From assembly GCA_030830965.1 (NCBI GenBank), contig JAURLX010000004.1, positions 124,001 to 188,000 on the forward strand: a stretch of 64,000 nt of DNA, given 5' to 3'. Under the pieces are notes generated by a model. That model saw only the letters and a program-made list of their open reading frames with translations, was not told the origin of the DNA and did no database searches. Source of the stretch: Verrucomicrobiota bacterium. GTDB taxonomy: Bacteria; Verrucomicrobiota; Verrucomicrobiia; Opitutales; UBA953. A program made the translations under genes and the position numbers. This document shows positions 4,365-34,134 of this stretch, piece by piece. The stretch's first letter is position 1; each line of letters starts with the position of its first letter.

Positions 4365-7300
4365 ATGACGGCCCCATCCGAGTCCCGCACCTATCGCCTC
4401 GCCAAGGCGGCCCTTCTGGCCGTCCTGGTCGCCATCACCCCCGCCCCCTCCGCGCTGCGCGCCCAGGCCGCCGGGAACGTCGTGGCCGGGGCCAAATCCG
4501 AAGGGGATGCGGTGGCGGAACTCTTCAAGGATGCCGAGAAGCTCTTTGACGCCAAGAAGTACCGCGAGGCCCTGGAGAAATACGTCGAGGTCGAGAAGAA
4601 GTCGGACCAGGCCCAGGACATGTACAAGGCGGTGATCTCCTTCCGCAAGGGAAGCTGCTACTACTTCATGAAGGACTGGCCCCGCACGGAGAAGGAGTTC
4701 ACCGACTTTCTGGCCAAATACCCGAAGGGCACCGAGGACTTCTTCGACTCCGACAACCGCCGCGGGGTAGCCGAGCTCACCCTCATCGAGTCCTTCTCCA
4801 GCCAAGGCAAGTGGGACGCCGCGCTCACCCGGCTCGAGAAGATCCGCAACAGCATCACCGAACGGCCCGAGGTGAGGGTCAATGCGTTCGCCCTCTCCGC
4901 CAAGATCAGCGTGGACCGGGCCAAGAGCGGCGACGAGGCGGCCAAGAAGGCCGGCTATTCCCAGGCCGTCACGTTCCTCCAGCAGGCCATCGCCGAGGGC
5001 GTGAGCACCCCCGAGCGCCGGGAGGCCGCGATCCAGCTGGTCGAGATCTACACCAAGCTCGGTCTCGTCAAGGAGGCCGAGCAGCTGAAGGCGCGGGTGG
5101 ACGCCAACAAGTCCGGATCCCCCGCCGACCTCATCCGCTCCAACTTCCAGCTCCTCAGCATCGGGGACGCCCGCTTCACTTCCGCCGACTCCGCCGTCGA
5201 CGAAATCGCCCGCGGCACGCTCTACCGCCAGGCCCTCGCCAGCTATCAGGGTACGATGCGCGCGACGGCGGTGACCCGCGACCTCGGCAAGGGCATGGCG
5301 GCGAAGGAGGAGACCCTCGAGGCGCTCACCAAGGCCAACCCCAAGCCCAACGACGAGATGAAGGTCCGCATCGAACAGGCGCGGGTCGACCTCGAGTCGT
5401 TCAAGAAGATCGACGCCGAGTTCAAGGCCAACAAGGACTACGACGCGATCATCTCCTACCGCATCGGCCTGTGCCTGCTGGAGCTCGGCCGCCCCTGGGA
5501 GGCCTTCGTGGCGTTCAAGGACATCTTCGAACGCAGCCCGGGCTTCACGCGGATCACCGGCGCCTACTACTACTATGTCATCACCCTGCGCCAGATGGGG
5601 CGACGCGAGGAGGCCCAGAAGGTCTGCAAGGACTTCCTGAAGAAGTTCCCCAAGGCCGACGAGGTGTCGCCGATCGCCATCATCCTCGGCGAGATCTCGC
5701 AGGACAACGAGGACTACAAGGAGGCAATCGAGCACTACAAGTGGGCCCGGGCGAACGTCCCCAACCTGACGCCCGACGCCGCGATGGAGATAGACTTCCG
5801 CATCGCCGCCTGCCTCTTCTCCCAGTACGAATGGGACGAGGCCCGCAAGGCATTCGACGCCTTCTCGGCCAAGTACGAGCGCTCTCCCGTCCGCCAGCAG
5901 GTGCTCTACATGACCGCGCTCTGCTGGTTCTACCAGGGCAAGTACAAGGAGACGAAGGAAGGCTTCGACAAGTACCAGGGCGAGTACCCCAAGGGCCTCT
6001 TCATCCCCGACGTCCGGTACCGGCAGGCCATCGTGCGCTTCGGCGTGCAGCCTCCGGAGACCGAGGAGACCATCAAGCTCTGCGAGGAGTGGCTGAAGGA
6101 CTACGGCGCCGACAAGTCCGATGAGATCCAGGTCCAGCTGCCGGACGTGCACACGCTCGTCGGCGACGCCAACATCCGACTCGCCGAGGGCTTCGACAAA
6201 GCCATCCGCGAGGCCGACCTCGTCATCCGCGCCGCCCAGAGCCCCGCGGCCCGCGCCAAGGCGCAGGAGGAGAAGGCCCGGCTGGACAAGCTCAAGTCGG
6301 GGTTCACCGACAAGGCGATCGAGGCCTACATCACCGCGGCCAAGCTCGGCCAGCGCAACGCCAACGCGCTCGAGTTCGTGCTGCGGGAGCTCAATAAGAT
6401 GCTGCCGGGGCGCGGCGAGCACCGCCGGATGCGCGAGCTCTACATGGAGCTCTACAACTGGGATACCAAGGACCCCAAGGCCCTGACCTACCTCTACGAG
6501 GTCATCCGCGCGACCGAACGGATGGGCGACCGCAAGGAATTCGCCGAACGCTCCGAGGAGATCCAGAAGAAGTTCAGCGCCGAGCTCGCCAAGGCCCGCC
6601 TCAAGGTCGACCAGCTCGAGCGGGCGAACCCGCCGGTGCAGGCCACCATCGACGCCGCCAAGGGCGAGGTGAAGGCCCTTTCCGGCAAGCTCGCCGAGGA
6701 GCTTGCGGCCGTCGAGAAGGAGCGCCAGGCGTCCATCGCCCGCGCGAAGGACAACGCCCTCAAGATCCTCTCCGACGCGGTCGCCGAGAACATCAACGAC
6801 CGGCGGCAGGAAGGCGCCGAGAAGCTCATCGGCTTCCTGGCCGAGAAGGTCGCGAAGAAGGTGCGGCGCGTCCGGCCCGGCGCCCAGCCCGAGCCCGGCG
6901 CCTACACCTCGGCCGACGCCGAGAAGGAGATCACCCGGCTGCTCCGCCTCGACCAGAACAAGGACTCCCTCGTGGCCCAGGCCCGCGGCTACTACGCCCT
7001 CGGACAGCTGGCGGTCTACACCCGCGAGCCCGCCAAGACCGAGCTGAACTTCAGCAAGATCGCCGCCAACTACAAGCCCGAGGAGCTCAGCCCCACGATC
7101 CTCGCGGTCGTCGGCGACCACCTGCTCGAGAAGGGCGACCTCGCCAAGGCCGACGCCTACTTCGCGGCCATCCTCACCGTCGCGCGCTCCTCGGAGTACG
7201 CCGATTACGGATACGCCGGACAGGCGGAGATCCTGCTCCGCGGAAAGAAGTTCAAGGAGGCCATGGCGCTCTGCGACGAGGCCATCGAGGCCCGGGCGCT

Positions 7301-7691
7301 GATGTCCAAGGAGCTCAACATCATGTTCATCCGCGCCCAGTGCCTGGCCGAGACCCAGAAGTACGACGAAGCCAAGAAGGGCTTCGAGGAGATCGCCAAG
7401 ACCAAGGAGTGGCGGGGCGAGAAGACCGCCGGATCCCTCTACTGGCTCGGCCTCATCGAGGAGCGGCAGGGCCGCCTCAACGAGGCGGTGGCCTTCTACC
7501 GTCGCTGCTACCAAGGCTGGCGGAAGTACGAGGGCTGGTCGGCCAAGGCCTACCTCGGGTGCGCCAAGATGCTCATCAAGCTCAACCAGCGCCCCGACGC
7601 CAAGGTGCTGCTCACGGAGATGCTGTCCAAGGACCGCATCAAGGAAACCCCTGAGGCCAACGAGGCCCGGAAGCTCTCCCTCTCGCTCTGA
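4365..7691 (+). CDS. Large secreted tetratricopeptide-repeat protein
   Basis: A 1108-residue protein with an N-terminal signal sequence (hydrophobic residues ~14-27, likely cut near ALRAQA). The rest is almost entirely helical hairpins of TPR type: repeated patterns such as Y.EAL.KY..VEKK, YKEAIEHYKWA, W.EA..AF..I, and AVAFYRRCYQGW near the end. An Ala/Glu/Lys-rich coiled-coil stretch lies near residues 730-800. No catalytic motif is visible. It starts a co-directional run with a second secreted repeat protein, ExbB and two ExbD proteins. A periplasmic scaffold or effector of that proton-driven motor is the natural inference. The exact partner is unknown. Confidence 0.8.
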   Translation: MTAPSESRTYRLAKAALLAVLVAITPAPSALRAQAAGNVVAGAKSEGDAVAELFKDAEKLFDAKKYREALEKYVEVEKKSDQAQDMYKAVISFRKGSCYYFMKDWPRTEKEFTDFLAKYPKGTEDFFDSDNRRGVAELTLIESFSSQGKWDAALTRLEKIRNSITERPEVRVNAFALSAKISVDRAKSGDEAAKKAGYSQAVTFLQQAIAEGVSTPERREAAIQLVEIYTKLGLVKEAEQLKARVDANKSGSPADLIRSNFQLLSIGDARFTSADSAVDEIARGTLYRQALASYQGTMRATAVTRDLGKGMAAKEETLEALTKANPKPNDEMKVRIEQARVDLESFKKIDAEFKANKDYDAIISYRIGLCLLELGRPWEAFVAFKDIFERSPGFTRITGAYYYYVITLRQMGRREEAQKVCKDFLKKFPKADEVSPIAIILGEISQDNEDYKEAIEHYKWARANVPNLTPDAAMEIDFRIAACLFSQYEWDEARKAFDAFSAKYERSPVRQQVLYMTALCWFYQGKYKETKEGFDKYQGEYPKGLFIPDVRYRQAIVRFGVQPPETEETIKLCEEWLKDYGADKSDEIQVQLPDVHTLVGDANIRLAEGFDKAIREADLVIRAAQSPAARAKAQEEKARLDKLKSGFTDKAIEAYITAAKLGQRNANALEFVLRELNKMLPGRGEHRRMRELYMELYNWDTKDPKALTYLYEVIRATERMGDRKEFAERSEEIQKKFSAELAKARLKVDQLERANPPVQATIDAAKGEVKALSGKLAEELAAVEKERQASIARAKDNALKILSDAVAENINDRRQEGAEKLIGFLAEKVAKKVRRVRPGAQPEPGAYTSADAEKEITRLLRLDQNKDSLVAQARGYYALGQLAVYTREPAKTELNFSKIAANYKPEELSPTILAVVGDHLLEKGDLAKADAYFAAILTVARSSEYADYGYAGQAEILLRGKKFKEAMALCDEAIEARALMSKELNIMFIRAQCLAETQKYDEAKKGFEEIAKTKEWRGEKTAGSLYWLGLIEERQGRLNEAVAFYRRCYQGWRKYEGWSAKAYLGCAKMLIKLNQRPDAKVLLTEMLSKDRIKETPEANEARKLSLSL

Positions 7692-7696
7692 ACGAC

Positions 7697-8713
7697 ATGC
7701 GCAACCCAAGCCCCCTCCTCGCCGCCGCGCTCCTGGCCGTCACGGCCTCGGCCCAGACCTTCGTCTTCCGCACCGACCGCTGGGAGGTCAACGACCCGTT
7801 CAAGATGGACACCTCGGTCATGCCTCCGAAGGCGCTCGTGGACCCCAAGAAGGGCATCATCAACCTGGTGAGGGGCACGGTGGAGCGGACGTTCACCCAG
7901 GGCGGCGCCGAGGTGACCAACACCCGCAAGCTCTCCGACGTCCAACAGATCATCTGGCCCGAGATGCCGCGCCTCATCGAGGCGCGCGCCAACGTGAACC
8001 GCGGAGAGCCGGCCAAGGCGCTCGAAAACGTCGAGCCGATCATCAACCTGTTCGAGCCCCTCAAGAAGGTCCCGGGCAGCCTCTGGCTCGAGGCGACCGT
8101 GCTCAAGCTAGACGCCCTCGACCGCCTGAACAACGACGCCGCCCTGGGAGGCTTCCTCGATGCTCTGGAGAAGGACGAAGCCGCCTCCACGCCCGAGCTC
8201 GCGACCAAGATCCAGCTGGCCCGCCTCCTGCAGCGCTCCCGCCGCGGGGAACACGAGTCCGTCATCCGCGAGGCCGACGACCTGATCGGCAAGATGGACG
8301 ACACCGAAGTGCTTGCCCGCCTGCACATCGTCAAGGGCGCCTCCCTGATGGCGACCCGCAAGTACGAGGCCGCGATGAACACCTACCTGCGCGTCCCGGT
8401 GTTCTACGGCACCGAGCAGGAGCAGGTCCCCAAGGCCATGCTCGGAGCCGCCCTCGCCTTCCGCGGCATGGACGGACCGGCCGTGCGGGAGCAGAAACTC
8501 GAGGAGACCTCCTTCCGCTACCTGCGCGACATCATCATCACCTATCCCGTCTCCAAGGAGGCCGACGAGGCCCGCAAGATCCTCCCTAAGGAGGAGGTCG
8601 CCAAGGCCGAAGCCGAGCAGAAGAAGCTCGTCGCCGCCGGACTGCTGCCCGACGGAGCCACGATCAAGAAGAGCGCCGTCCGCCCCGAGGACGACCAGTC
8701 CGCTAATCGCTAA
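7697..8713 (+). CDS. Secreted helical-repeat (TPR-like) protein
   Basis: A 338-residue protein beginning five bases after the preceding TPR gene, so the two are very likely co-transcribed. Residues 1-19 (LLAAALLAVTASAQ) are a signal peptide. The mature part is largely helical with degenerate TPR-like pairs, for example ARANVNRGEPAKALENVEPI and KYEAAMNTYLRVPVF. The C-terminus is rich in Lys and Glu (KAEAEQKKLVAAG). No enzyme motif is visible. A 59-base pyrimidine-rich gap separates it from exbB. Function is inferred only from position: a periplasmic accessory of the ExbB/ExbD motor. Confidence 0.7.
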   Translation: MRNPSPLLAAALLAVTASAQTFVFRTDRWEVNDPFKMDTSVMPPKALVDPKKGIINLVRGTVERTFTQGGAEVTNTRKLSDVQQIIWPEMPRLIEARANVNRGEPAKALENVEPIINLFEPLKKVPGSLWLEATVLKLDALDRLNNDAALGGFLDALEKDEAASTPELATKIQLARLLQRSRRGEHESVIREADDLIGKMDDTEVLARLHIVKGASLMATRKYEAAMNTYLRVPVFYGTEQEQVPKAMLGAALAFRGMDGPAVREQKLEETSFRYLRDIIITYPVSKEADEARKILPKEEVAKAEAEQKKLVAAGLLPDGATIKKSAVRPEDDQSANR

Positions 8714-8772: not shown

Positions 8773-9594
8773 ATGAAGACGAACCTACGTTCCCCGTTCT
8801 CCCCCGCCCTTGCGCTCGTGCTCCTGACCGCCCTCGCCGGCGCCCAGGAAGCCGCCCCCGCCGCGGCCGCCGCCGCCACCGTCCACAAGAAGACCCTCAT
8901 GGACCTCTTCATCGAGGGCGGCTGGGTCATGTACCCCATCGCCATCGCCTCGGTGGCGATGATCTGGTTCATCGTGCAAGGCTTCATCAACACCAGCCGC
9001 AAGCGCCTTCTGCCCCTTGAGCACGTGACCCAGCTCCGTGAGCTGTTCAAGGCCGGCAACTACGTGGGGGCCTACGCCTTCGCCAAGTCCAACGCCTCGC
9101 CCGTCTGCGACGTGGTCCGGGCCGGCGTCGCCCTCGCGCCCGACGGCAAGAACATGACCGAGGAGGCGATCATCTCCGAAGTCACTCGGGTCCAGGGAGA
9201 CCTCATGGGCAGCGCCTCCTACCTCTCCGTGATCGGGGTCTGCACCCCCATGATCGGCCTGACGGGCACCGTGACCGGCATGATGACCGCATTCGAGACG
9301 CTCAGCTCGTCCGGCGTAGGCGACCCCTCCAAGCTCTCGGGAGCCATCGGCGAAGTGCTCGTGGCCACGGCCTCCGGCCTCTTCATCGCGATCCCCGCCT
9401 TCATCGCCTACTACCTCCTGCGCAACCGCATCTCCAACGGCATCCACGACGTGCAGGAAGTCGTCGGCGGGCTGTTCCGGGGCTTCCCCTACCAGGACGT
9501 AGCCGGACGCAGGATCGGCGACGAGGAAATCTACGCGGCCAAGCCCGACTGGAACGCCGCGCCCGCCGCGCCCGCCGAAGCGCCCCAGGCCTGA
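8773..9594 (+). CDS. exbB: MotA/TolQ/ExbB-type proton channel protein
   Basis: Inner-membrane stator subunit that, with ExbD, turns proton flow into mechanical work on a TonB- or TolA-like partner. The 273-residue protein has a cleavable-looking signal sequence (to about residue 24), a short Ala-rich linker, then the usual three helices: WVMYPIAIASVAMIWFIVQG (about 50-70), the conserved GLTGTVTGMMTAF, and VLVATASGLFIAIPAFIAYY. The cytoplasmic loop lies between helices 1 and 2. The N-terminal signal sequence is absent from enterobacterial ExbB and TolQ. Two exbD genes follow directly. The short name reflects the family; it could equally be a TolQ-type subunit. Confidence 0.9.
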   Translation: MKTNLRSPFSPALALVLLTALAGAQEAAPAAAAAATVHKKTLMDLFIEGGWVMYPIAIASVAMIWFIVQGFINTSRKRLLPLEHVTQLRELFKAGNYVGAYAFAKSNASPVCDVVRAGVALAPDGKNMTEEAIISEVTRVQGDLMGSASYLSVIGVCTPMIGLTGTVTGMMTAFETLSSSGVGDPSKLSGAIGEVLVATASGLFIAIPAFIAYYLLRNRISNGIHDVQEVVGGLFRGFPYQDVAGRRIGDEEIYAAKPDWNAAPAAPAEAPQA

Positions 9595-9629: not shown

Positions 9630-10070
9630 ATGGCAGGCGGAGGCGGAGGCGGAGACGGAGAGCCGGAATTCCAGGTCGCGCCGATGATCGACGTGCTCCT
9701 GGTGCTCCTGATCTTCTTCATGTCGATCACCTCCTCCCAGGTGCTCAAGGTCGACAAGAACATCTCCCTGCCCGTCGCCAGCCACGGAGTGAAGCGCGAC
9801 GACAAGGCGGCCGCGGGACTCATCAACATCTCCTGGGACACCACCACCGGCCAGGCGAAGTACAAGCTGGACGATCGCGAACTCGACCCGAACGACAAGG
9901 ATGGCATCTCCAAGGAGCTCGAACGGCGCAAGGGCGGGAACGAGAAGTTCCGCCTGCTCATCCGCGCCGACCGCAACTGTCACGCCAAGTACATCTCCAA
10001 GGCCCTCGAGTGGGGAGCCGAAGCCGGCATCGACAACATCGCCTTCTCCGGGCTGAACCGCGAGGAATGA
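9630..10070 (+). CDS. exbD: ExbD/TolR-family protein (first copy)
   Basis: A 146-residue subunit of the proton-driven motor. A Gly-rich cytoplasmic start (MAGGGGGGDGEPEF) is followed by QVAPMIDVLLVLLIFFM, the single membrane helix carrying the conserved proton-accepting Asp. A periplasmic domain of about 100 residues follows and ends in the YISKALEWGAEAGIDNIAFSG type strand-helix-strand. It lies between exbB and a second exbD, four bases before the latter. Two non-identical ExbD proteins suggest a heteromeric stator or two alternative partners. Confidence 0.9.
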   Translation: MAGGGGGGDGEPEFQVAPMIDVLLVLLIFFMSITSSQVLKVDKNISLPVASHGVKRDDKAAAGLINISWDTTTGQAKYKLDDRELDPNDKDGISKELERRKGGNEKFRLLIRADRNCHAKYISKALEWGAEAGIDNIAFSGLNREE

Positions 10071-10074
10071 GACC

Positions 10075-10518
10075 ATGAGACAAGCTAAGCAGGAGGCCCC
10101 GGCCGACGCAGGATTCCAGATCGCACCGATGATCGACGTGGTCTTCGTCATCATGCTCTTCTTCATGGTCATGGCCGGGGCGGTCAAGGTGGAGCACGAG
10201 CTCAAGACCACCCTGCCCGGCAACGCCGAGACCGCCCAGGAGACCGAGCTTCCCGACGAGGTCACCATCGGGGTCTCCGAGACCGGCGAAGTCTCCCTCA
10301 ACGACGACCCGCTGGGCGCCCCCCAGGACAAGGTGCTCGAGGGACTCTACTCCCAGATGGTCCAGATGCGCAAGGCGGCCGAGCAGGCCAAGACCAAGAT
10401 GCTCATCACGGTGCAGGCCGAGGAGGCCGCCCGCTACGAACGCGTGATGAACGTGCTCGACGTGCTCGCCCGCGCCGAGATCACGAACGTGACGTTCGCG
10501 GTCTCTGAGACGGAATGA
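10075..10518 (+). CDS. exbD: ExbD/TolR-family protein (second copy)
   Basis: A 147-residue ExbD homologue with the same plan as its neighbour: a short charged cytoplasmic start, the helix QIAPMIDVVFVIMLFFMVMAG with the conserved Asp, then a periplasmic domain ending AEITNVTFAVSE. The two copies share the membrane motif and overall fold but differ clearly through the periplasmic part, so this is not a recent duplication. It is the last gene of the cluster. A terminator hairpin follows 23 bases after its stop codon. Confidence 0.9.
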   Translation: MRQAKQEAPADAGFQIAPMIDVVFVIMLFFMVMAGAVKVEHELKTTLPGNAETAQETELPDEVTIGVSETGEVSLNDDPLGAPQDKVLEGLYSQMVQMRKAAEQAKTKMLITVQAEEAARYERVMNVLDVLARAEITNVTFAVSETE

Positions 10519-27432: not shown

Positions 27433-27573
27433 GCGTCCATCCAAGCGTACGCGGGCGCCGGGCGCAACCGCCAAGCCCTCGGCGGGGCCCGAGGCGGATC
27501 CAGGAGACCGGGCTGCGGGCGGCGGAGACCCCTTTCCAGTTGAGGCCGGCGGGGGTCGAGGCAGCATGGAATC

Positions 27574-28407
27574 GTGCGCCCCGCCCTGCTCCTTGCGCTG
27601 ATGTCCGTGGCGATGGTCGGCGGCGCCGAACCTTTCGAGGTCGCGCTCCGGACGAGATCCAAGGACGTGGCCGTCCGCGAGGCGCGGTCCGAGACCGGAC
27701 GCATCGAGCCGGCGCGCACCGCAGCCATCGTCTGCGACATGTGGGACACCCACACCTGCCCGGCCGCCGCCTCCAGGGTGGTCGAGATGGCGCCCCGGAT
27801 GGACCGGCTGTTGCGGGAACTACGCAGGCGCGGCGTGCTGATCATCCACTGCCCCAGCGGCACCATGAAGTTCTACGAAGGCACTCCGGCCAGAAAGCTG
27901 GCCCAGGCGGCCCCGAAAGCGACGACGCGGACACCCCTCGAGGGTTGGGTGAAACTGATTCCCGAACGTGAGGGCGCCCTGCCCATCGACGACAGCGACG
28001 GCGGCTGCGACGTGCCCCGGACCTGGAAGCCGGGCGACCCCTACCCCTGGACGCGCCAGATCGCCGCGATCGACGTGCTGCCGGGCGACGCCGTCACCGA
28101 CAGCCGCGAAGCCTACGACCTCATGATGGCGCAGGGGCGCGACACGGCGATCATCATGGGGGTGCACCTCAACATGTGCGTCCTCGGCCGCCCCTTCGGC
28201 ATCCGTCAGCTCGTCGCCCAAGGCGTGCGCACCGTGCTCGTACGCGACCTCACGGACACGATGTACAACCCAGCACAGGCTCCCCGAGTGAGTCATTTCG
28301 AAGGCACCCGGCTCATGATCGAGCACGTGGAGCGCCACTGGTGCCCGACGGTCGCCAGCTCCGAAATCCTGGGCGGGACGCCGTTCCGGTTCAGCGGAGA
28401 CCGCTGA
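27574..28407 (+). CDS. Secreted isochorismatase-like hydrolase
   Basis: A 277-residue protein with an N-terminal signal sequence (LLLALMSVAMVGGAEP) and an isochorismatase-type alpha/beta fold: AAIVCDMWDTHTC with the catalytic Asp, a GVLIIHCPSG strand, and GVHLNMCVLGRPFGIRQ carrying the nucleophile cysteine. Related enzymes hydrolyse isochorismate, nicotinamide, N-carbamoyl compounds or other amides and esters. Export out of the cytoplasm suggests an environmental substrate. GTG at 27574 gives the best signal peptide; ATG at 27601 would shorten it. The gene faces the VWA-domain gene, with only six bases between stops. Confidence 0.8.
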   Translation: MRPALLLALMSVAMVGGAEPFEVALRTRSKDVAVREARSETGRIEPARTAAIVCDMWDTHTCPAAASRVVEMAPRMDRLLRELRRRGVLIIHCPSGTMKFYEGTPARKLAQAAPKATTRTPLEGWVKLIPEREGALPIDDSDGGCDVPRTWKPGDPYPWTRQIAAIDVLPGDAVTDSREAYDLMMAQGRDTAIIMGVHLNMCVLGRPFGIRQLVAQGVRTVLVRDLTDTMYNPAQAPRVSHFEGTRLMIEHVERHWCPTVASSEILGGTPFRFSGDR

Positions 28408-28413: not shown

Positions 28414-29697
28414 TCAACGGACCGGCTTGACGGCGCCGGCTCCCTGCGAGACGCCCGGGGCCTTGGAGTCGCCCTTGCCGAGGTCGGCCGGATTGATCTT
28501 GGTGATGGCCCCGCCGGACGCCGTGGCGAGGGACTTGATGAAGGCACCCGGCTGGTTGCGCGTCGTGAACACGTAGAGCTTGGGGCCGTTGGCTTGGGGG
28601 GAGAAGGACTTGATCCAATCCTGCTCCCACTCCTTCTCCTGCGGCTTGCGGTTGTCCACGCCGCGTCCGACGCCGTAGTTGGTGTCGTCGGAGAACAGCA
28701 CGAGCGGCGTGGGCGCGAAGCCCCGCTCGGCCTTGACGCCCTTGACGCGAATCTGCGTCAGGCCGTAGTCGGCGAAGTCCGTGAAGACCACCAGCGCGTC
28801 GTACGTCTTCTCGTCGCGCATGATGTCGAGCCAGGCGCCGAGCCGTCCCGTCTTGAAGTGCTGGTCGTAGCGGGTGAGCATCGTCCGACCCTTGCCTGAA
28901 AGCGTCTTGGGGTCCGTGACCGGCTTCAGCGTCTTGCCGTCGGGGCGCTTGGTGTTGGTCTGCACCCCGCGGGCCGCCCGGGTCTTGCCCTTCATGAAAT
29001 CCTTGCCGCCCACGACGTCGCCGTCCTGGATCGTGATGGCGGGCTGTTCGTAGACGAAGACGTCGGCGTCCGGGAAGGACTTCCTGATCTCCGACTGCAC
29101 GGAGTCGAGGTAGTCGATGAGCGAGTCAGAGGAGTCGAAGTAGACCGCGATGCTCTGGGCGAAGACCTGGGCCCCCATCACGGGCTTGGCCACGAAGTTC
29201 CTGCCGCCGCCGACGCCCATGCCGCGTCCGGCACCGATGCCGCCGCCGGAGCCGCCGCCGAAGCCCTTGGAGGAGCCGCCGCCCATCATGCCCGAGATCA
29301 TCGAGGACATGGAGGCCGAAGGAGGAAGGTCAGGGAGGGCGATGGAAGCCGAGGCGCTCTTCGACGTGATACGGGACGTCGTCTTCGCCATGTTCTTGAC
29401 GTTCTTGGGCTGCACCTTGCGGGGCTGGTTGTTGACCTTCTCGCCGCCGGTGCCCCCGCCGGCGCCGGTCGCGAAAGTGTTGGGATCCTTCTTGGACTGC
29501 GTGGTGATCTCGGAGACCACCCAGATCGCGGCCAGAAGGACGAGCAGGCCGTGGACGGCCAGGGAGATCGTCAGCCCTTCACCGCCCAGCCGACGCCAGA
29601 ACGATCCGCGGGCGCGTACGGTCACGACGGGACCGGCGTTCTTGGACTCGGCCTCGGGAACTTCTTCGGGCGGGGGCGGGGGCGGGGTTTCGCTCAT
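28414..29697 (-). CDS. Membrane protein with TonB-like helix and von Willebrand factor A domain
   Basis: A 427-residue protein of unusual layout. It has a proline-rich acidic cytoplasmic start (PPPPPPEEVPEAE), then a single membrane helix at about 42-62 (LTISLAVHGLLVLLAAIWVV) with Ser45 and His49. The SxxxH spacing is that used by TonB to contact ExbB/ExbD. A Gly/Ser/Lys-rich periplasmic linker follows (about 65-170), then a VWA-type domain with a complete metal-ion adhesion site: D188-S-S-D-S192, a Thr at 272 (GRTMLT) and Asp307 in VVFTDFADYG. The domain is closest in plan to VWA proteins, but the combination is not one I recognise. ATG at 29697 was preferred to GTG at 29733. Confidence 0.65.
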   Translation of the reverse strand: MSETPPPPPPEEVPEAESKNAGPVVTVRARGSFWRRLGGEGLTISLAVHGLLVLLAAIWVVSEITTQSKKDPNTFATGAGGGTGGEKVNNQPRKVQPKNVKNMAKTTSRITSKSASASIALPDLPPSASMSSMISGMMGGGSSKGFGGGSGGGIGAGRGMGVGGGRNFVAKPVMGAQVFAQSIAVYFDSSDSLIDYLDSVQSEIRKSFPDADVFVYEQPAITIQDGDVVGGKDFMKGKTRAARGVQTNTKRPDGKTLKPVTDPKTLSGKGRTMLTRYDQHFKTGRLGAWLDIMRDEKTYDALVVFTDFADYGLTQIRVKGVKAERGFAPTPLVLFSDDTNYGVGRGVDNRKPQEKEWEQDWIKSFSPQANGPKLYVFTTRNQPGAFIKSLATASGGAITKINPADLGKGDSKAPGVSQGAGAVKPVR

Positions 29698-30112: not shown

Positions 30113-31360
30113 TCAACCTCCGCCGGTCATCTTGGAGATGAGCGCGATAAGCGGCAGGAACATCGCGAGCACGATGGTGCCGACCACGACGGCCAGGAAG
30201 ACGATGAGGACGGGCTCGATGATCGAGGTGAGCGCGGTGACGGCGTTGTCGACCTCCTCGTCGTAGATGTCCGCGACACGGTTGAGCATCTCCGGCAGCT
30301 GGCCGGTCTCCTCGCCGACCTGGATCATCGAGGTGACCATCTGAGGGAACACGCCCGACTGCTCCAGCGGGACCGAGAGGGGCTCGCCGTCGCGCACGCG
30401 GTCATGCACGCGTTCGAGTGACTTCGCGATGACGACGTTGTCGAGCGTGTCTCGGGTGATGGAGATGGACTGGAGGATGGGGACGCCCGAGGCCATGAGC
30501 GTGCCGAACGTGCGCGCGAAGCGGGAGACCGAGACGATCTGGACGAAGGCCCCCACCTTGGGCAGACGGAAGATCATGCGGTCGAAGAGCGACTTGCCCT
30601 TGGCCGTGGCGAGCCAGTACTTGAGGCCGAACCAGAGGCCCGCGACGAGCACCGGGGTGACGAACCAGTATTCGGTGAGGGCCTTCGAGATGCCCACCAC
30701 GAACTGCGTGAGCGGGGGCATCTGCGTCTTCTGCCCGTCGAGCAGTTTCTGGAACGAAGGCACCACCTTCACCATCAGGATGTACACGATGATGATGGCG
30801 ACCGAGAGCACGACGCCCGGGTAGACCATCGCGGACTTCACTTTCTTCTGGATACGGGACGCCTTCTCCCGGAACCTGGCCAGACGGTCGAGGACCTTGT
30901 CCAGGACGCCGCCGGCCTCGCCGGCCCGGATCATGTTGACGAAGAGCTTGTCGAAGACCTTGGGGTGGGACTGCAGCGCCTCGGAGAGGTTGTTGCCCTG
31001 CGCGACGCTCTCGGCGACGTTGGTCAGGATGTCCTTGAACGCCAGGTTGCGCTCCTGCCTGGCGATGAGCTCGAGTCCGCGCAGGAGGGGGAGGCCGGCC
31101 GTAATCAGCGTGGCCAGCTGACGGGTCATGACGGTCACGTCGTCCTGGGTGACCTTCGATCGGAAGCCGAAGCCTCCCTTCTTGGCGCGGGGGGCCGAGG
31201 CGGGCGTTGCCGGCTTGGAGCCGCCCTCGGCGGCGAGGGCGGTGACCATCAGTCCGCGCGCCATGAGCTTCTGGCGGGCCTGCGCCTCATCGGGCGCGCT
31301 GATGGAGCCGCCCGTCTGGGCGCCGTTCTTGTCGATGGCGGTGTACTTGTAGTCGGGCAT
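30113..31360 (-). CDS. pilC: Type IV pilus / type II secretion inner-membrane platform protein (PilC/GspF)
   Basis: A polytopic platform protein that couples the cytoplasmic ATPases to pilin assembly. The 415-residue length is normal. The N-terminal leader domain MPDYKYTAIDKNGAQTGGSI is typical of PilC/GspF. Two T2SSF repeats follow, with MTRQLATLITAGLPLLRGLE and FARTFGTLMASGVPILQSI, and helices near VVLSVAIIIVYILMVKVV, FVTPVLVAGLWFGLKYW and IEPVLIVFLAVVVGTIVLAMF. It is the last gene of a four-gene operon with two PilB/GspE-type ATPases and PilT. A bidirectional terminator follows. Confidence 0.93.
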   Translation of the reverse strand: MPDYKYTAIDKNGAQTGGSISAPDEAQARQKLMARGLMVTALAAEGGSKPATPASAPRAKKGGFGFRSKVTQDDVTVMTRQLATLITAGLPLLRGLELIARQERNLAFKDILTNVAESVAQGNNLSEALQSHPKVFDKLFVNMIRAGEAGGVLDKVLDRLARFREKASRIQKKVKSAMVYPGVVLSVAIIIVYILMVKVVPSFQKLLDGQKTQMPPLTQFVVGISKALTEYWFVTPVLVAGLWFGLKYWLATAKGKSLFDRMIFRLPKVGAFVQIVSVSRFARTFGTLMASGVPILQSISITRDTLDNVVIAKSLERVHDRVRDGEPLSVPLEQSGVFPQMVTSMIQVGEETGQLPEMLNRVADIYDEEVDNAVTALTSIIEPVLIVFLAVVVGTIVLAMFLPLIALISKMTGGG

Positions 31361-31378
31361 GGTCGTTCGGTGAGAGTG

Positions 31379-33058
31379 TCAGGTGTATTTGAGGACTTCC
31401 TCGATGGTGGTGTGTCCGTCGAAGATGCAGCGCAGCCCGTCCTCGCGGAGCGGACGCATGCCAGACTCGACGGACTTCTGCTTGAGGACGAGGGTGGGCG
31501 CCTTCTGGGTGATGAGCGTGCGGATGCCGTCGTTGATCGGCATCAGCTCGAACAGGCCCTGCCGTCCGCGGTAGCCCGAGCGGTTGCAGTCCGGGCAGCC
31601 CTTGCCGAAGAAGAACTCCTTGCCCGAGATCTCGAGCGCGTCGACGTCGAGCATGGCCACGACCTCCTTGTCAGGTTCGTACGCGGTCTTGCAGGACCGG
31701 CAGATGCGGCGCAGCAGGCGCTGTGCGAGCACGCCCTCGAGCGAGGCGGAGATCAGGAACGGCTCCAGGCCCATGTCGATCAGTCGGGTCACGGCGCCGG
31801 GGGCGTCGTTGGTGTGGAGGGTGGAGAGCACGACGTGGCCGGTAAGGGAGGCCTGCACCGCGATCTGGGCGGTCTCCAGGTCGCGGATTTCGCCCACCAT
31901 GATGGTGTCGGGGTCCTGACGGAGGAAGGAGCGTAGCGCGGCGGCGAAGGTGAGCCCGACCTGGTGGTTGATCGGGACCTGCATGATGCCCTCGACCTCG
32001 TATTCGACGGGGTCCTCGGCGGTGAGGATCTTGATGTCCTCGGTGTTCACCTCGCGCAGCGCCGAGTAGAGGGTGGTGGTCTTGCCGGAGCCGGTCGGGC
32101 CGGTGACGATGAAGATCCCGTTGGGGCGGTTCACCATCGTGCGGATGCCGTCCTTGATGTCATCCTGCATCGAGAGCGCGTCCAGGCTCAGGTTGACCAC
32201 GGACTTGTCGAGGATTCGGAGCACGACGGACTCGCCGAACTGGGTGGGCAGGGTGGAGACGCGGAGGTCGATCGCGCGGCCACCTATGGTGGTCTTGATG
32301 CGGCCGTCCTGCGGCACGCGGCGTTCGGCGATGTTGAGCGCGGAGAGCACCTTGACGCGGGCGATGACAGCGGGCGCCAGGTTCTTGGGCGGAGGCGCCA
32401 TCTCGTAGAGCGAACCGTCGATGCGGTAACGGATGCGGAACTGATCCTCGAACGGCTCGAAGTGGATGTCCGAGGCCTTGGCCTTGACGGCCTCCTGGAG
32501 CACCAGGTCGACGAAGCGGATGATCGGCGCCTGGCTGGCGGCGGTGGCGACATCCTCCTCGCCCTGGGACACGTCGGACTGCTCGATCTCGCCGAGGAGG
32601 TCCTCCATCGAGGAGGCAGAGGGCTCCCCGTAGGCACGGATGACCGCGCTGTCCACCTGGTCGGGGTCGGCGACGGCGAACTCGACGTCGCGCTGGAGGA
32701 TGAACGTGAGCTCGCCGACGGCGGCCGAGTTGAAGGGATCCTTGGCGACGAGCACGACCTTGCCGGCGTCGTCGGCGACGGGCACGGCGACGTACTTGTG
32801 GGCCTGGGCGGGCTTCAGCAGCCGGATGACGTCGGAACCCGGGTCGGTCGGCACGGCGGAGTAGTACTGGACCTGGAGATGGTCGGCGACCGCCTGCAGG
32901 AGCGTGGGGCGGTCGGCTAGGCCGGCGTCCAGCAGCGCGGCGGTGAAGGACTTGCCGGTCGTCGCGTGGGACTCCCAGAGCTCGTCGGCCTGGGCGGCGT
33001 CGACGAGCCCGGCCTCGAGGGCGATGTCGCGGATGATGTCGCTGTGTTCGTCGAACAT
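31379..33058 (-). CDS. pilB: PilB/GspE-family assembly ATPase (downstream copy)
   Basis: A 559-residue AAA-type secretion ATPase powering pilus or pseudopilus assembly. It has an N-terminal MshEN/T2SSE-N domain ([29 protein letters not shown] region), Walker [16 protein letters not shown], the Asp box, Walker B with the catalytic Glu ([17 protein letters not shown]), His box [16 protein letters not shown], and a tetra-cysteine zinc site (CRSC and CPDC). The ATG at 33058 was chosen because the upstream extension runs into pilT and is rich in Pro/Arg. pilT ends five bases before it. A second, different copy lies upstream of pilT. Confidence 0.92.
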
Positions 33059-33063
33059 GGAGG

Positions 33064-34134
33064 TCAGTTTTCGGCGGGGCCGCGGAGCCGGGCGCGGATC
33101 GCCTCGGGGTCCTGGCAATAGTTGTAGATCTCCTCCTCCTCGATGACGCCGCTCGCGTGCAGGGCGAGAAGGTCGTTGTCGAGGGAGCGCATGCCGCGGG
33201 CGGCGCCGGTCTCGATGTCGGAGGCAATCTGGAAGGTCTTCTTGTCGCGGATCTTGGCGGCGACGCCGACAGTGTTGATGAGGATCTCGAAGGCGGCGAT
33301 GCGGCCGTCCTCCTTGGTGTGCAGCAGGCTCTGGGAGATGACCATGCTCAGGGAGGAGGCGAGCTGGACCTGCACCTGGTCGCGGCTGCCGGTGGGGAAC
33401 GCGTCGACGATGCGCTCGATGGTGCGGGCGGCGCCGGAGGTGTGGAGGGTGCCGAGCACGAGGTGCCCGGTCTCCGCCGCGGTCAGGGCCGCCTCGATCG
33501 TCTCCAGGTCGCGCATCTCACCGATGAGGATGACGTCCGGATCCTGGCGCAACGCCGCCCGGACGCCCTCGGCGAAGGAAGGCATGTCGGGCCCGACCTC
33601 GCGCTGCGTGACCGTGCACTTCTTGTGGGCGTGGGTGTACTCGATGGGATCCTCGAGGGTGATGATGTGGCCCGACTCGTTGGCGTTGATCCAGTCGATC
33701 ATCGAGGCGAGCGTGGTGGACTTGCCGGAGCCGGTCGGGCCCGTCACGAGCACGAGCCCGCGGGCCCGGCGCAGCTGGTCCTTGATGACCGGCGGGAGCC
33801 GGAGCTGCTCAAGGCTGAACATGCGCGTGGGCAGGAGCCGCAGGACGAGACCCGTCTCGCCACAGGCGCGGAACACGTTGCAGCGGAGGCGGCCCTTCTT
33901 CTGGAAGGCGAAGGCGAAGTCGCACCCCCCCTCCTTGGCCAGGCGTTCCTTGAGGTGGGCGGGGACGATCTTCCCGGCGAGCGCGTCCGTATCGGCGGCC
34001 GAAAGCGAGGGGCCGTCGAGCGGCAAGATGTCGCCGTTGATGCGCAGCGACGGCGGCCGGCCGACGTGCAAGTGCAGGTCCGACGCGCCCTCGTCGAGCA
34101 TCGCCTCCAGCAGCTGGTCGAGTTCGTAGGCCAT
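33064..34134 (-). CDS. pilT: Type IV pilus twitching motility / retraction ATPase PilT
   Basis: A 356-residue hexameric ATPase that retracts type IV pili. The N-terminal PAS-like domain begins [36 protein letters not shown]. Walker [20 protein letters not shown], Walker [21 protein letters not shown] and the His box [19 protein letters not shown] are intact. It lacks the N-terminal MshEN domain and zinc site of the flanking PilB proteins, as expected for PilT. Its presence argues that the cluster makes a retractile type IV pilus rather than only a type II secretion system. Confidence 0.93.

Follow-up and report, generated by a model that had tools for sequence, protein, structure and literature searches.

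The probable transducer gene, its neighbourhood, and the putative motor operon

The window, a 64,000-nucleotide stretch of a Verrucomicrobiota contig, carries on its reverse strand an intact 427-aa open reading frame (28414..29697; P0001) that we annotated as a likely vWA-type force transducer gene; the preliminary description had given no strand for it. Orthologues in two close genomes were 89-90% identical, with the same ATG and the same length. A search of 37 genus genomes recovered the family from every one, in most cases as several paralogues. A single-sequence search with the 427-aa protein gave no family match in 20 other families of the order; a profile search recovered the family class-wide and phylum-wide. 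Relatives with a name attached come from Opitutae/Verrucomicrobia metagenome assemblies. Pfam and NCBIfam scans of the protein matched no model up to E 10, and PDB sequence searches with the protein and with its profile returned mostly chance matches to glycine-rich sequences.

The protein is laid out as a proline-rich N-terminus, one helix, a disordered glycine-rich stretch, and a C-terminal domain at approximately residues 170-405. The N-terminus (29580-29697), predicted to be cytoplasmic, comprises ∼40 residues, six consecutive prolines among them, and similar proline-rich starts recur in many homologues. Some genus orthologues are longer (650-745 aa; L040:7998-9980 and L051:7939-10080): an insertion and additional C-terminal sequence flank their VWA domain, with repeats of the form G(I/L)PxGTxV...TLSxPLTA in these added segments.

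The genes pilC, pilB, and pilT (30113-34134) are located directly upstream in the same orientation and are conserved beside the VWA gene genus-wide. On the other side, in most genus relatives, another VWA-headed paralogue sits between the transducer gene and a 4HBT thioesterase gene (for example, L050:6302-7795, to be compared with 27450-27574 in the window). The close relative G018 has kept this paralogue; with a gap of ∼120 bp at this place, the window appears to have lost it.

The putative motor operon lies 18 kb from the transducer gene, on the forward strand. Its first gene encodes a secreted TPR protein of 1108 aa (4365..7691), a homologue of which lies beside exbB in 14 of the mapped distant operon loci, and is followed by a gene for a small secreted protein of 338 aa (7697..8713) with homologues in L112, L128, L129, L135, and L136. 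Next come exbB (8773..9594; Pfam MotA_ExbB, 5.5e-24), whose product we take to be the motor channel, and two exbD genes (9630..10070, Pfam ExbD, 2e-15; and 10075..10518, 5.9e-21) with their Asp residues in PMIDVLLVLLIFFM and PMIDVVFVIMLFFM, respectively; a threonine synthase gene on the opposite strand follows. We found no TonB_C domain anywhere in the window, in agreement with the preliminary description, which had noted an ExbB-ExbD-ExbD cluster with no TonB gene of its own. The equivalents of ExbB Ser34, Thr148, Thr181, and Pro190 are kept, as is the ExbD Asp; the Trp38 position is I, V, or L (once F) in ExbBs of the window type, with Tyr or Trp one residue later in most.

The membrane helix and the C-terminal head

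The predicted TonB/TolA-like transmembrane helix spans residues 42-62 (29512..29574, reverse strand; an AlphaFold helix at 39-68) and includes Ser45 (29563-29565, reverse strand) and His49 (29551-29553, reverse strand). In an alignment of 155 distinct homologous N-modules, down to ∼25% identity, the His49 column was His in 154 and the Ser45 column Ser in 144, otherwise Ala or Thr. The neighbouring columns vary, and nowhere else in the helix is conservation as high as at the His. The Ser-His pair pointed out in the preliminary description is therefore real and kept above chance, and homologues retain it; its absence from them would have counted against the idea. Cryo-EM structures show the equivalent pair of TonB and TolA in contact with ExbB/TolQ, with an essential His (PMC12215075). 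The N-module alignment shows the SHLS motif in its first half only, because the Leu position is Ala or Gly and the second Ser is Val or Ile; the cited work finds the second half less conserved in Ton as well. No Asp occurs within helix residues 39-62 (LTISLAVHGLLVLLAAIWVVS). The helix is followed by a disordered, Gly-rich, presumably periplasmic linker of ∼100 residues (67-166; 29200..29499, reverse strand) with an AlphaFold pLDDT under 50.

We then considered the C-terminal domain (residues 168-407; 28477..29196, reverse strand). AlphaFold gave a core pLDDT mostly of 80-94, and a pTM of 0.79 when the domain was modelled alone. Whether the full model or only the domain was aligned, the structures in the best 50 VIA-align rows were VWA-domain proteins wherever the chain was identifiable, including TFIIH p34/p44, Sec23/24, Rpn10, and integrin beta, with Z up to 7.7. 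Foldseek returned no match with E under 0.001 for either model. We also built a head profile seeded on five VWA-headed class relatives, of which the four scanned had Pfam VWA matches (three of these scoring above the VWA_3 cut-off). In its third round, this profile picked up the window protein (E 1.9e-11), and it did not match the four PA14-like and toroid control heads. Because Z was at best 7.7 and Foldseek E values stayed above 0.001, the fold call rests on the consistency of the alignments and on the profile chain; on these predictions, the C-terminal domain of the 427-aa protein is VWA-like. A region that did not fold as VWA would have spoken against the idea; the predicted structures do not bear this out. 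The range first given for the domain, 175-330, proved too short, the domain occupying approximately 170-405.

The metal site had been described as complete. Its first motif, DSSDS (188-192; 29122..29136, reverse strand), and Asp307 at the position of MIDAS motif 3 (28777..28779, reverse strand), which aligns with the Asp of the (S/T)DG motif of relatives, did hold up: D188, S190, S192, and D307 were invariant in 21 aligned homologues and paralogues. T272, the Thr proposed for the site, did not, since its column reads T/N/S/Y/R/G/A/L/Q/E in the same alignment, and the MIDAS Thr of the VWA_3-scoring relatives lies within a GGTDW motif that aligns with G284-R285 of the window protein. The site is, as judged from these alignments, incomplete: it is without the MIDAS Thr, and T272 is both unconserved and off the Thr position. 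The MIDAS-like loop may nonetheless bind metal.

Linkage to an ExbB-ExbD-ExbD motor

We used the window ExbB alone as a query against 286 class genomes and obtained 48 strong matches in 44 genomes. For 31 of the 48 window-type exbB genes, an N-module gene lay 1.0-2.4 kb downstream on the same strand, after two exbD genes (once three), while none of the 59 weaker ExbB matches in the 286 genomes had an N-module gene nearby. All 44 genomes with a window-type exbB also had an N-module gene, compared with 92 of 286 overall, a comparison among genomes that are related to each other and with an N-module profile that includes operon members. In an ExbB tree, the window ExbB grouped with transducer-linked ExbBs (support 97/95), and the four other ExbBs of the genome and E. 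coli ExbB/TolQ fell outside its clade; because linkage was the criterion for choosing the linked ExbBs, this tree speaks to the affinity of the window ExbB and does not test linkage. The gene order TPR-exbB-exbD-exbD is common to the window and to the transducer-linked operons of relatives. The connection between transducer and ExbB, put forward as inference in the preliminary description, which proposed a survey of related genomes, is now supported by operon adjacency, co-occurrence, and the ExbB tree. Within the window's own family, none of six genomes (the window's and five others) had the transducer within 4 kb of the motor, and in three genus genomes it lay 18.6-19.7 kb away on the opposite strand; we read this as a probable relocation of the transducer out of the motor operon in this family.

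The helix motif, the VWA-like fold, the operon linkage in relatives, and the co-occurrence were computed here, and we consider it likely that the protein is a periplasmic force transducer of the vWA type, driven by the proton motive force and TonB/TolA-like except for an unrelated head, with its helix on the ExbB of the window cluster. By analogy with TonB and TolA, the Ser45-His49 face of the single helix would dock on the ExbB encoded in the TPR-exbB-exbD-exbD cluster, the motor consisting of an ExbB pentamer that surrounds an ExbD1/ExbD2 pair. The disordered linker would extend into the periplasm, the VWA-like head would grip a partner in that compartment or at the outer membrane, and proton flow through the motor would pull on that partner. 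The best candidate partner of the head would be the secreted TPR protein of the operon; we place it first because CpoB, encoded in the Tol-Pal operon, plays this role as the periplasmic TPR partner of TolA. Against this reading count the position of the transducer outside the motor operon here, the four other ExbBs in the genome that could serve it (C3 among them, which keeps the Trp38 missing from window-type ExbBs), and the half-SHLS motif.

One alternative is that the protein is a genuine TonB-like transducer driven by another ExbB (for example, that of the exbB-exbD pair C3 or of C30, a pair linked to TonB) and that the window cluster is unrelated to it. There are five ExbB genes to choose from, and the C3 ExbB keeps the classical Ser34/Trp38/Pro190 trio, as in E. 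coli; furthermore, TonB is able to work with the motor of TolA and vice versa (PMC12204202). However, the 44/44 co-occurrence and 31/48 adjacency are those of the window-type ExbB, and the other ExbB types of the genome lie outside the transducer-linked clade, so we regard this alternative as unlikely.

The pil genes upstream raise a different alternative, a static inner-membrane VWA anchor serving assembly or quality control, perhaps of a type IV pilus, in which the Ser and His would be inherited and no force transmitted. VWA domains are frequent in proteins of pili and of complex assembly, and pilC, pilB, and pilT keep their place immediately upstream throughout the genus. Homologues in the sister genus (L125 and L126), however, are without pil neighbours, whereas the Ser-His pair and the exbB-exbD-exbD linkage persist class-wide. 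A plain anchor would need no His, yet no residue of the helix is better conserved, and a tRNA gene on the other strand stands between the transducer gene and pilC. We therefore consider an anchor improbable, more so than a transducer driven by another ExbB, and we rejected assignment as a type IV pilus protein by neighbourhood, since the pil linkage is genus-only. Least probable by far is a dimeric motor subunit like TPH-vWA (PMC12204202), which joins one helix to a vWA domain, co-occurs with tolQ homologues, and would place a proton-binding helix in the ExbB pentamer: we rejected it because the helix has no Asp and keeps the Ser-His pair instead, and because homologues come with two ExbD genes, those of the window themselves carrying the Asp.

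Exchangeable heads and comparison with known systems

The N-module also occurs with other heads. A clean profile partition of 124 distinct N-module proteins gave 89 VWA, 26 PA14-like, and 9 toroid C-terminal types, counts that are not natural frequencies because these proteins were collected with a VWA-type query. The PA14-like call stems from Pfam PA14 matches in 4 of 16 members (best E 1.7e-6); a PDB sequence search with the PA14-like set gave mostly chance, glycine-rich matches. For the toroid call, Pfam SQHop_cyclase_C scored above the cut-off in two proteins (L138 and L122) and more weakly in two others. All three types were found directly behind exbB-exbD-exbD: VWA heads in L136, L130, L128, and L142, PA14-like heads in L135 and L137, and toroid heads in L138, L139, L112, and L122. 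In L173 (4372-9238), a single operon carries exbB and two exbD genes followed by two transducers in tandem, the first VWA-headed and the second PA14-headed. One genus of the phylum has 5-19 occurrences of the N-module per genome, and the copies examined were mostly PA14-headed.

In genera with such expansions, we also observed a gene for a small secreted protein with an MxIWTxxxGKTxEAxxV-like motif after PA14-headed transducers (L169:4582-5361, L170:7954-8709, and L172:4703-5440). The protein presumably resembles an SHD1/SLA1-type domain and is a possible candidate partner of the PA14-headed transducers.

The head is exchangeable on a shared module. A broader proposal, for and against which we would weigh the chances equally, is that one type of Verrucomicrobiota ExbB-ExbD-ExbD motor is a general pulling platform: a shared Ser-His helix and glycine-rich linker would carry at least three unrelated heads (VWA, PA14-like, and a squalene-cyclase-like alpha/alpha toroid). 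A genome would have several such transducers and an operon at times two, and one motor would thereby act on several partners in the envelope or at the surface. Our literature searches, in open-licence papers only and hence a weak guide to absence, found no PA14- or squalene-cyclase-headed TonB-like protein.

A proton-driven VWA protein was not recognised as a known kind in the preliminary description. The idea found support here, and the kind had already been described: Williams-Jones et al. 2025 (PMC12204202) reported a PMF-driven 'vWA force transducer' in PVC bacteria, in an operon of TPR, tolQ-like, two tolR-like, and transducer genes. The core idea is accordingly not new. The published transducers, often but not always encoded beside the TPR, tolQ-like, and two tolR-like genes, were proposed from structure prediction and synteny, and their function was left without assignment (PMC12204202). 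The window protein shares with the Tichowtungia-type members the Ser-His helix, the disordered linker of ∼100 residues, and a C-terminal domain of vWA fold, and the window's motor operon has the published gene order. It differs in that the transducer gene lies apart from the motor operon and the MIDAS Thr is missing, and the N-module here also comes with PA14-like and toroid heads.

TPH-vWA likewise combines an inner-membrane helix with a vWA domain and associates with a TolQ-like pentamer, but it replaces ExbD/TolR and has a helix Asp (PMC12204202), neither of which applies to the window protein. With E. coli TolA (TolQ-TolR), the window protein shares the Ser-x3-His helix, a run of glycines shortly behind it, and an operon that includes a periplasmic TPR protein (CpoB in Tol-Pal); unlike TolA, it is without the TolA C-terminal domain and its putative motor has two ExbD genes. 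We saw no TolB or Pal at the transducer locus. The E. coli TonB (ExbB-ExbD) is alike in its single Ser-x3-His helix, which contacts ExbB (PMC12215075), its periplasmic linker, and its C-terminal domain, which binds the partner. The window protein, in contrast, is without TonB_C, its linker is Gly-rich where that of TonB is Pro-rich, and its cytoplasmic tail is much longer than that of TonB; no link to a TonB-dependent receptor was seen.

Relative to PMC12204202, the motor link of vWA transducers gains an independent count from our genome survey. Two other heads (PA14-like and toroid) in the same operon slot and the tandem of a VWA-headed with a PA14-like-headed transducer were not found there, and PA14 has 0 occurrences in its main text. 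If this is right, comparing heads on one motor module would be a direct way to find the pulled partners, and TonB and TolA would be two members of a broader group of levers powered by protons.
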